From positions 1 to 45,479 of the forward strand of contig DASWRM010000013.1 in NCBI GenBank assembly GCA_036403155.1: a stretch of DNA of 45,479 nucleotides, written 5' to 3'. The translations under genes were made by a program, and so were the position numbers. Source of the DNA: Gaiellales bacterium (lineage in GTDB: Bacteria; Actinomycetota; Thermoleophilia; Gaiellales; JAICJC01). Shown here one piece after another: positions 4,110-30,740 of this stretch. Positions within the stretch are counted from its first letter, which is position 1. Every line of letters begins with the position of its first letter. Below the pieces are notes generated by a model. The model searched no databases. It had not been told where the DNA came from and saw only the letters and a program-made list of their open reading frames with translations.

Positions 4110-4856
4110 CTACGGCGGCGGTCCGCGGTCGAGCGGCTTGACCGCGAGCAGGCCGAACGCGAAGCCGCCGAGGTGCGCGAAGTAGGCGACGCCGCCGCCG
4201 CCTCCGCCGACCGAGCCGACGCCGGCCGACGCGCCCGCGACCTGCAGGCCGATCCAGATGAGCAGGAACAGCACTGCCGGAATCGGGATCGGGATCCAGC
4301 CGACCAGCGTGATCACGAACGCCCGCGGGAACATCAGCAGGTAGCCGCCCAGCACGGCCGCGATCGCCCCCGACGCGCCGATCGTCGGGACGTCGCTGCC
4401 CTGCGCTGCGAGCCACTGCAGGCCGACGGCCGCCACGCCGCCCAGCAGGTAGAACAGGATGAATCGCACCCGCCCGAGCCTGTCCTCGACGTTGTTCCCG
4501 AAGATCCACAGGAAGAGCATGTTGAAGAGCACGTGCGCCCATCCACCGTGGAGGAACATCGACGTGAGCACCGTCAGGGCGACCGGCACGTGATGCACCA
4601 TGAACGGGGCGTTCGCGCCGAGGTCGACGCGGTCGTCGCCCAGCTCGCAGGTGTGCTGAACCTCGCACGGGACGAAGCCGTACTCCGAGGTGATCGCCGT
4701 CTGGCTCTCGACCGGGAACACCTTGCCGCGGGTGGTCGGGAGGTGCTGCACCGGCCCGTAGATCTCGACCAGGAACACCGCGAGGTTGATCAGGATCAGC
4801 GCCACGGTGACCACGGGTCGCCGCCGGGTGGGGACGTTGTCGTGGAGCGGGATCAC
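4110..4856 (-). CDS. Rhomboid family intramembrane serine protease
   Basis: 248 residues with six or seven hydrophobic segments. The family hallmarks are present: HGGWAHVLFN (residues 103-112, including the oxyanion-hole Asn112), GASGA with catalytic Ser162, and AHLGG with catalytic His228. A loop after TM1 (~residues 40-90) holds two Cys (C64, C70) that could form a disulfide outside. A Gly-only stretch (~217-222) precedes the last helix. It would cleave membrane proteins within the bilayer; the substrate is unknown. It starts at a GTG that overlaps the TGA of the dehydrogenase gene (GTGA) and is probably translated by coupling. Confidence 0.93.
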   Translation of the reverse strand: MIPLHDNVPTRRRPVVTVALILINLAVFLVEIYGPVQHLPTTRGKVFPVESQTAITSEYGFVPCEVQHTCELGDDRVDLGANAPFMVHHVPVALTVLTSMFLHGGWAHVLFNMLFLWIFGNNVEDRLGRVRFILFYLLGGVAAVGLQWLAAQGSDVPTIGASGAIAAVLGGYLLMFPRAFVITLVGWIPIPIPAVLFLLIWIGLQVAGASAGVGSVGGGGGGVAYFAHLGGFAFGLLAVKPLDRGPPP

Positions 4857-28080: not shown

Positions 28081-29967
28081 CTAGCGCAGGGCGTCGACCA
28101 GCTGGACGGCGCGCGGCGTCCCCAGCCCCGTGACGTCGTCCCACCCCGGCGCCGTCCGCAGCGACGTGTCGCGGTCGAGCGAGCGCAGCAGCGTCGAGAT
28201 CGTCCCGTCCGGGTTCAGTCGATGCCGCAGCACGGCCAGGTGGCCGCCGCTCGGCGTGATGTCGTTGAACACCCCGCGCCCTGCGAGCGCGTACAGCGCA
28301 GGGTTGAGAAAGCCGTTCGACCGGCCGGAGGACTGGTTCGCAAGCGTTGCCAGCCCTGCCATCAGAGGCGCTGAGAGGCTCGTGCCGCCGATCCAGGTCT
28401 GCTTCTGCTCGGTTCCGCCGTTCGGCTTCGAGAACGTCTGCGTGAAGAGCACGCCCGTCTGCGGGTCGGCGACCATCGCCACGTCGGGCTCCGCCCGCTG
28501 CGTCCCGGGCACCACGCCGTCCTGATACGACGGCTTCGCGTACAGGCGGCTCGCGCCGCCGCCGGCGCCGTAGAGGAACGAGCCGGGGAACGAGGGTGCC
28601 CATCGCCGCCCGGTCCAGCCCAGCTCGGTCGTGCCCCAGCCCGTCTCCCACAGCCGCTCCCCGCTCGCGCCCACCGCCAGGCTCGTCCCGCCGACCGACG
28701 TCACGAGCGGGCTCGAGTCCGGGAACCCGGCCGAGACGCGCCCCACCGCGCCGAGGTTGTCGCCGTCGTCGCCGGACGCGAACACCATCTCCATCCCCTG
28801 TGCCTGGGCCTGCTCGAACACCGAGTTCAGCGCCCGCACCTCGCCCTTCGATGCGTCCGACTCCGCCATCCCCCAGCTGTTCGACACGACGTCGGCCAGC
28901 CGGTTGTCGACCACCTCGTTCAGTGCCTGGTCGAGGCCCTTGGTGGTGTTCGCCGCTCCCACGTAGACGATCCGCGCCTGCGGCGCGATCGCGTGCGTCC
29001 ACTCCACGTCGAGCGCCTGCTCGATGTACCAGTTCTGCGTCTCCGCCGGATCCTTCGGGTACTTCAGCGTCCCGGGCGCGACCACCTCGCTGTAGCGGAC
29101 GGGCGGCAGCCCGAACGACCGCGAGAAGCTCCTGATGTCCGAGCGGATCGTGGGGGAGAAGAACGCGCCGGTGATCGCGATCGTCTGCCCGCGCCCGTCC
29201 AGGCCGCGAGCGTGCAGATCGTCGATGCCGTACGCCGAGGCGATCTGCGACGGTGTGTAGCCGCAGAGCAGCCACGGCAGCGGCTGCCCGGGGGCGAACG
29301 GGTTCGGAAACCGCGTGCTCGTTCGCTCGCCCCAGGAGTGGGAGCAGGGGCCGAGCGACGTTCCCGTCGGCGGCGGCGGCGGCGCGTGCTTCGCCCGTGG
29401 CTCGGCGAGCGCGTACGCGCTGTCCAGCCCGGTGATCGCGGTCACCGTGGGCGCCAGGTCGTTCGGGATGACCGGGTCGGAGTCCGGCGCGCGCACCGTT
29501 TGCCCGTTGACCTGGTACAGCGACTCGTTCACGCCGAAGGCCTGCTCCACCTGCGCCACGGATCCTGAGGCCGTCACGAACAACCGGTTCTTCGGCACCT
29601 CGACCAGATCGAACCGCTCGCCGGTCAGCCAGCGGGCGACGCGCTTGACGTCGCGCTCCTCCGGCGCGAAGCGGCTCCGGAACTCCTGCGGGCTCAGCCA
29701 TCGGTGGTACTGCGCGCTGGTCGCGTCCCGCTGCTCCGCGAGCAGGTCATCCAGGCCGGACTGGTCCCGCCATCCCAGCCAGACCGAGAACACCACCCGG
29801 CCGTTCGGGGATGCCTGGCCCGCCTGGTTCCCCCGCGTCGCCCACGAGGGCGCGGTGCCGGGTACATGCGCGTGCGACGTGGCCTGCGCCGTCGCCGAGG
29901 ATGCCAGGAGCGCGGCCCCGATCAGGGCTGGGACTGAGGTGCGGCGGAGCAGCCCGAGCGGAGCCAT
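28081..29967 (-). CDS. Secreted S53 family serine-carboxyl protease (sedolisin/kumamolisin-like)
   Basis: 628 residues. A signal peptide (LLRRTSVPALIGAALLASSA) is followed by a pro-kumamolisin domain to about residue 190 (LDDLLAEQRDATSAQYHRWL and RVARWLTGERFDLVEVPKNR). The catalytic Glu/Asp pair lies in EQALDVEWTHAIAPQ, the oxyanion region in DVVSNSWGM, and the nucleophile Ser in GGTSLSAPLMAG. S53 enzymes are acid-active extracellular endopeptidases that self-process the pro-domain. Third gene after the UDG-like and presenilin-like genes, 23 nt beyond the latter, with GGGTGAGGG just before the ATG. Confidence 0.93.
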   Translation of the reverse strand: MAPLGLLRRTSVPALIGAALLASSATAQATSHAHVPGTAPSWATRGNQAGQASPNGRVVFSVWLGWRDQSGLDDLLAEQRDATSAQYHRWLSPQEFRSRFAPEERDVKRVARWLTGERFDLVEVPKNRLFVTASGSVAQVEQAFGVNESLYQVNGQTVRAPDSDPVIPNDLAPTVTAITGLDSAYALAEPRAKHAPPPPPTGTSLGPCSHSWGERTSTRFPNPFAPGQPLPWLLCGYTPSQIASAYGIDDLHARGLDGRGQTIAITGAFFSPTIRSDIRSFSRSFGLPPVRYSEVVAPGTLKYPKDPAETQNWYIEQALDVEWTHAIAPQARIVYVGAANTTKGLDQALNEVVDNRLADVVSNSWGMAESDASKGEVRALNSVFEQAQAQGMEMVFASGDDGDNLGAVGRVSAGFPDSSPLVTSVGGTSLAVGASGERLWETGWGTTELGWTGRRWAPSFPGSFLYGAGGGASRLYAKPSYQDGVVPGTQRAEPDVAMVADPQTGVLFTQTFSKPNGGTEQKQTWIGGTSLSAPLMAGLATLANQSSGRSNGFLNPALYALAGRGVFNDITPSGGHLAVLRHRLNPDGTISTLLRSLDRDTSLRTAPGWDDVTGLGTPRAVQLVDALR

Positions 29968-29990: not shown

Positions 29991-30740
29991 TCAGGCCGAG
30001 GAGTCCCGTTCGGGTGAACCAGCTCTCCCCCGGATGCGATCGGCCAGCTGCGCGCCGTTCGCCGTCAGGAACGCGATCGAGAGCAGGGGCAGCGCGGGCA
30101 ACGCCCGGTTCAGCTCGTACGAGAGGTACAGCGTCAGCCCGAACGAGGCGGTCATCGCCGCCCACGTTACGGCCGGTCGCAGGCCGAACACCCGAGCCGC
30201 GGCGAGGAACACCGAGAAGAACACGAAGTCGCTGGCGCCGATCTGCGCCACGCCCTCGCTTCCCAGCGGGTGGAACGCGAGCGTGAACGCGTTCAGCACC
30301 TGCTCGTGGTGCTCGACGATCACCTTCGTCGGACCCGCCGCGACGCTGTAGGTGTCCACCACCGCGATCAGGATCGCGATGCCGACGATCTCGACCGGCG
30401 TCTGCAGCAGCGACGCCAGCGTCAGCCCGATCAGCGACGCGGCGAGCAGCTTCGTCAGCGTCGCGGGCGTGCCCGGATAGCCGGCCCAGATCAGCACCGC
30501 CGTCGCGCCGGCCGCGGCGACGGCCGCGGCGAGCAGCCTCGGCCCCAACCGCGCAAGCGGCTCGAGCGCGAACGGCACCAGCGTTGCGAGCGGGATCGAC
30601 ACCAGCGCGAGCCCGGCGACGTCGGCGGCGGTGCCGGCACTGCGCGCGACATGGGGCGCCAGCAGGTCGAAGGCAGCCAGCGCTGCGAGCGCCGCGCACG
30701 CGCGCCGCGCGATCAGTACGGTGGAAGGTTCTCGTACCAC
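29991..30740 (-). CDS. Presenilin/SPP-like intramembrane aspartyl protease homologue
   Basis: 249 residues with about seven to nine hydrophobic helices. Three segments match the presenilin/signal-peptide-peptidase family in order: a helix with ILIAVVDTYSVAAG (Asp129), a helix with QIGASDFVFFSVFL (Asp171, where presenilins have GLGDFIFYSVL), and RALPALPLL (PAL motif, 215-217) before the last helix. The Gly normally just before the second Asp is Ser here (GASD for GxGD). It would cleave substrates within the membrane; an SPP_2-type (archaeal-like) grouping is my best guess. Start: GTG at 30740, or CTG at 30716 forming a CTGA overlap with the UDG-like gene. It lies in an operon with an S53 protease. 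Confidence 0.72.
   Translation of the reverse strand: MVREPSTVLIARRACAALAALAAFDLLAPHVARSAGTAADVAGLALVSIPLATLVPFALEPLARLGPRLLAAAVAAAGATAVLIWAGYPGTPATLTKLLAASLIGLTLASLLQTPVEIVGIAILIAVVDTYSVAAGPTKVIVEHHEQVLNAFTLAFHPLGSEGVAQIGASDFVFFSVFLAAARVFGLRPAVTWAAMTASFGLTLYLSYELNRALPALPLLSIAFLTANGAQLADRIRGRAGSPERDSSA

Follow-up and report, generated by a model that had tools for sequence, protein, structure and literature searches.

A presenilin-like family of putative intramembrane proteases in Thermoleophilia, encoded beside a UDG-fold gene

Results

A presenilin-like membrane protein is encoded between a UDG-fold gene and an S53-type protease gene

The window, that is, the whole stretch of 45,479 nucleotides from a Gaiellales bacterium (a soil-type actinobacterium of the class Thermoleophilia) that was analyzed here, contains the following features at the locus under study:

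29991..30740, minus strand: presenilin-like eight-helix membrane protein, 249 aa, GTG start
30327..30362, minus strand: VVD129TYSVAAGPT, first catalytic-type Asp and GPT motif
30228..30239, minus strand: GASD, Gly168 to Asp171, second catalytic-type Asp
30087..30104, minus strand: ALPALP (PAL motif) before the last helix
30713..31378, minus strand: UDG-superfamily-fold gene, upstream, 28-bp overlap
28081..29967, minus strand: pro-kumamolisin/S53-type secreted protease gene, downstream

The presenilin-like open reading frame starts with GTG and shares its first 28 bp with the upstream gene, the two probably being translationally coupled; the S53 gene lies 24 bp downstream. Among named relatives, the nearest (L031, 75% identity) is a Thermoleophilia metagenome bin. 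A sequence-only reading of this stretch had proposed that the gene encodes a presenilin/SPP-like intramembrane protease. Its open reading frame, coordinates and numbering of Asp129 and Asp171 are exact, and the three segments that it singled out, AVVDTYSV, IGASDFVFFSVF and ALPALP, are all present as given. The same window also carries a rhomboid protease gene (4140-4574, minus strand; PF01694, 114 bits).

Profile searches and structure prediction demonstrate homology to presenilin

Presenilin (PF01080) was the only Pfam family matched by the window protein (E=1.4e-4), with a score of 21.2 bits that lies below the curated cut-off of 34.3 bits. PF01080 exceeded this cut-off in none of 149 class genomes, which is a point against a protease. 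A search of NCBIfam with the window protein gave no match. The sequence-only reading had named two further models, neither of which turned out to be the relevant one: PF06550 (archaeal SPP) matched nothing in the window's genome at E<=0.001, with controls being detected, and Pfam SPP (PF04258) did not match the window protein. Among the 56 aligned members of the family, 12 matched PF01080 at E<=1, the best at 1.6e-6; other membrane families such as DUF4267 produced scattered weak matches, to fewer members and with worse E-values than presenilin. The earlier concern that an unrelated transporter family might score better did not materialize, as none does so for the window protein.

A profile of the 56 aligned members, searched against PDB sequences, retrieved presenilin-2 (E=3.5e-7) and presenilin-1 (E=2.5e-5) in an alignment that is collinear over the TM6, TM7 and PAL regions. 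In TM6, 'vDaySVaaGPTkaive' of the profile is placed on 'YDLVAVLcpKGPLRMLVE' of presenilin, and the GPT motif of the window protein (30327..30362) aligns with YDLVAVLcpKGPLR. In TM7, 'LGlsDvlFfaLF' is placed on 'LGLGDFIFYSVL', and in the PAL region 'PALP' on 'PALP'.

The AlphaFold2 model of the window protein (mean pLDDT 92.8, pTM 0.90) has eight transmembrane helices, compared to nine in A22 GxGD proteases. D129 is located in helix 5 (115-135) and D171 in helix 6 (169-184), and the loop that leads into helix 6 contains two short strands (153-156 and 165-168); strands of this kind serve substrate binding in presenilin (PMC12067869). Foldseek ranked gamma-secretase presenilins first (E 1.3e-4). 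The fold check suggested by the sequence-only reading came out in its favor: with Z 10.5-16.8, the 24 top chains in VIA-align came without exception from presenilin, SPPL2a or archaeal PSH, far above the first unrelated chain at Z 5.7. The alignment to PSEN1 reached Z 16.8 (rmsd 3.5, 197 aligned), followed by SPPL2a with Z 14.8 and PSH with Z 14.1. The helix correspondence before TM6 is ambiguous between the sequence and structure alignments. As profile, AlphaFold2 model and structure alignments agree, the protein is homologous to presenilin and shares its fold.

The family is common in Thermoleophilia

Relatives were found in 143 of 299 sampled Thermoleophilia genomes with the profile and in 136 of 299 with the single sequence. 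The earlier statement that bacterial members are rare therefore does not hold for this class. In a phylum sample of 396, relatives outside the class occurred in one family (f23), with one marginal match in another (f33). Scanning genome contigs with the single sequence gave only one close relative, and a mobile origin was rejected, since the single-sequence query found no relative in viral contigs. The proteins constitute a large bacterial family that is unnamed in Pfam and NCBIfam. Neither the window's genome nor 137 of 149 class genomes contain SppA (PF01343, S49) at E<=1e-10. The presenilin-like gene was considered as its replacement and this was rejected: 8 of the 12 genomes with SppA have an intact presenilin-like gene as well, and the two genes thus do not avoid each other.

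A UDG-fold gene accompanies the presenilin-like gene

All 90 class loci have a gene with UDG fold upstream of the presenilin-like gene in the same orientation, and in at least 55 of these the two genes have overlapping ends with the chosen starts. Outside the class, the UDG-like gene precedes the presenilin-like gene in 8 of 9 loci, its copy there being much more decayed. The sequence-only reading had proposed co-transcription with both neighbors of the gene. While the UDG-like gene is indeed conserved, with its UDG motif lost, the S53 neighbor occurs in only 6 of 90 loci, all from the window's own family.

The UDG-like protein matches TIGR03914 (E 9.5e-10) and PDB 4zbx (3.2e-6). The GExPG motif of UDGs is replaced in it, the aligned stretch reading KYRPM. 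K57 is invariant in 86 members, and GSGHPLAD and a C-terminal PPY are class-specific invariants. The UDG-like protein of the class may form an undescribed subfamily of its own. A role of PPY as a docking site for the membrane protein found no support, as genomes lacking the membrane gene conserve it to the same degree. The UDG-fold protein is probably a partner or regulatory protein rather than a DNA-repair enzyme.

It is quite conceivable, if short of an even chance, that the pair reflects nothing but inherited chromosomal synteny without a functional link. A wider block is also conserved around the two genes (CDP-alcohol phosphatidyltransferase, inositol-phosphate synthase, GT4-PHP, TrmA), and 280 of 299 class genomes carry the UDG-like gene, about half of them lacking the membrane gene. 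However, among the neighbors tested the UDG-like gene alone reaches 90 of 90 loci, with at least 55 overlapping ends, and the pairing recurs outside the class although the UDG-like sequence has decayed there.

The glycine before the second aspartate is replaced throughout the family

Motifs were counted in 111 aligned members. The residue preceding the second Asp (Asp2) is Pro in 45, Ser in 44, Ala in 11, Thr in 7 and Val in 4 of them, and Gly in none; the Gly three positions before Asp2 is kept in 104. The first Asp (Asp1) is kept in 109, Asp2 in 103 and the PAL proline in 105 members, with LPALP, VPALP or IPALP occurring in 86. In the 56-member alignment, D129, S132, G136, G168, D171 and P218 are invariant, which speaks against a chance resemblance of the motifs. 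Members with Asp2 thus read Gx[PSATV]D instead of the GxGD of A22, and in place of YD most have VD or ID, with V preceding the first Asp in 66 of 90. Shared with A22 are the two Asp in consecutive membrane helices, the PAL motif before the last helix and the presenilin fold. The motif is thus GxSD or GxPD as a rule of the family. The earlier reading was correct about Ser before Asp171, which it regarded as odd, but this residue is no peculiarity of a single gene, as Gly has been lost family-wide (0/111). In a quick tree, the Pro state characterizes a single 48-row clade (SH-aLRT 99), inside which Ser turns up again; in the remaining members, Ser is the most frequent residue.

In human PS1, a requirement for Gly384 has been reported (Steiner 2000, cited in PMC2405781), and PS1 G384A is described as active with Abeta42 raised sixfold (PMC2405781). 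In light of these two reports, Pro is the most surprising variant. Ser or Pro at the site of a reportedly required Gly and Val in place of the Tyr of YD are both points against a protease.

Some lineages lack Asp2. Five members in genus g74 keep Asp1, have Thr at Asp2 and have lost the PAL prolines; two members in genus g72 have lost both Asp, and one member in f5 has Ala at Asp2. At these loci (L088, L122-L125, L127, L143, L085), with Asp2 or both Asp lost, the gene still lies beside the UDG-like gene. The Asp2-less forms look like natural pseudoproteases that arose in three losses after an active ancestor, and their retention suggests that part of the role may be non-catalytic.

Extending this to the whole family, the presenilin fold would serve without proteolysis, the Gly before Asp2 being gone, as a membrane scaffold or channel for the UDG-fold partner. 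We consider this unlikely. A scaffold would not demand both Asp, the PAL motif and the GxxD Gly, which are kept in more than 90% of very divergent members, whereas the arguments in its favor are the absence of the Gly before Asp2 in 111 of 111 members, the reported requirement for human G384 and the two genera and one single genome that keep an Asp2-less gene beside the UDG-like gene. The latter look like secondary decay confined to individual lineages, and Ala at the Gly384 position leaves PS1 active (PMC2405781).

Charge distribution and extra domains point to an SPP-like orientation

Since the protein has eight helices, both termini should be on the same side of the membrane. In 56 of 56 sequences, Lys and Arg are commoner on the side of the termini than on that of the catalytic loop (mean K+R 8.8 versus 2.9), even though the catalytic loop is the longest. 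This bias predicts termini in the cytosol and a catalytic loop on the outer side.

Two members carry a calcineurin-like phosphoesterase domain at their C-terminus (L018:50-1498:- and L020:563-1993:-); metallophosphoesterases are normally cytosolic. In eight loci (L071, L074, L080, L081, L149-L152; for example L152:788-1114:-), the catalytic loop is extended by an inserted domain of roughly 105 aa that is modeled as FN3-like. Its best structure matches are FN3 domains, with Z up to 7.9, which on its own is modest, and its strand order suggests that the insert may be circularly permuted, the strand that normally comes first being the last. Both the C-terminal fusion and the loop insert agree with termini inside and catalytic loop outside.

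The predicted arrangement, with an extracellular catalytic loop, is that of SPP and the reverse of that in presenilin; SPP/SPPL proteins have an orientation opposite to presenilin and act on type II substrates (PMC7366577). From this predicted SPP-like orientation we infer N-in substrates, for example signal-peptide remnants or tail anchors. A presenilin-like orientation, with the active site opening to the cytosol and N-out (type I) segments being cut, appears quite improbable: the sequence is closer to presenilin than to the SPP models, none of which the window protein matches, but the charge bias, the cytosolic-type C-terminal fusions and the FN3-like insert point the opposite way. Further C-terminal extensions, which consist of unassigned domains, are found in L019:1501-3036:+, L046:4173-5711:+ and L069:1785-3302:+.

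Discussion

Presenilin and SPP have been described in eukaryotes and archaea, and presenilin is known as an Alzheimer's-linked protease. In the literature searched, which largely lies outside subscription journals so that a prior mention is possible, no paper on a bacterial presenilin was found. An unrelated polytopic transporter with presenilin motifs by chance, which the sub-threshold Pfam score and the scattered weak matches of members to families such as DUF4267 might suggest, can practically be dismissed, since profile, fold and conservation consistently point to presenilin and the PDB profile match and structure alignment refute it.

We regard it as likely that the window protein, a homolog of presenilin/SPP, is a diaspartyl intramembrane protease, which would be oriented like SPP, would act on N-in substrates and would have the UDG-fold protein as its partner. 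In the proposed mechanism, the eight membrane helices would place Asp129 in helix 5 and Asp171 in helix 6 next to each other and to the PALP segment, where the two Asp would activate water to cut a transmembrane helix. The substrate helix would enter and partly unwind against the short beta strands that immediately precede GxSD. With cytosolic termini and an outward catalytic loop, the enzyme may act on N-in segments of type II, signal-peptide-like or tail-anchor-like character. The protease would be made together with the UDG-fold protein, which lacks the UDG motif and may serve as partner or regulator.

Because GxGD, YD and the Pfam cut-offs are lacking and the two Asp, PAL and fold are present, the proteins fall outside the strict GxGD family and make up a new sister family with the presenilin fold. 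This previously undescribed family has Gx[S/P/A/T]D as its second motif and most likely works like SPP. More tentatively, and only as a possibility, the family may be SPP-oriented, work although Ser or Pro occupies the position of the 'required' Gly, be controlled by a UDG-fold partner that is catalytically dead and encoded on the same message, and be an origin of natural pseudoproteases.

G384A, a change at the active-site Gly, is a familial Alzheimer's disease change. The compact bacterial family holds many natural variants at this position, including a clade nearly fixed for Pro, and together with the lineages losing Asp these make the role of the Gly position directly testable. The small bacterial enzymes may also serve as good structural models.

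Compared to known systems, the UDG-like neighbor has recognizable homology to family 4 UDG/UdgX (PF03167), but GExPG aligns to KYxPx, the match stops short of the HPS region, and GSGHPLAD and the C-terminal PPY are invariants of its own. SPP/SPPL (PF04258, A22B) is similar to the window protein in fold (SPPL2a Z 14.8), predicted orientation, PAL and the two Asp, whereas the window protein has no Pfam SPP match and lacks the Gly of GxGD and the Tyr of YD. Archaeal PSH/MCMJR1 (PF06550; PDB 4hyg, 4y6k) is likewise a prokaryotic single chain of similar size and fold (Z 14.1), and the initial prediction for MCMJR1 gave 8 TMs, with its motifs in TM5/6 (PMC2947513); unlike the window protein, PSH carries GxGD and YD, and PF06550 matches nothing in the window's genome. 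Presenilin (PF01080, MEROPS A22A) is the best match of the window protein in both sequence and structure. The two have in common the Asp in consecutive helices, the GP motif after the TM6 Asp, LGxxDFxF, ALPALP and the strands before the second Asp. In contrast to presenilin, the window protein is bacterial, about half as long and modeled with 8 helices instead of 9, and the new family has VD for YD, Gx[SPATV]D for GxGD and the opposite predicted orientation.
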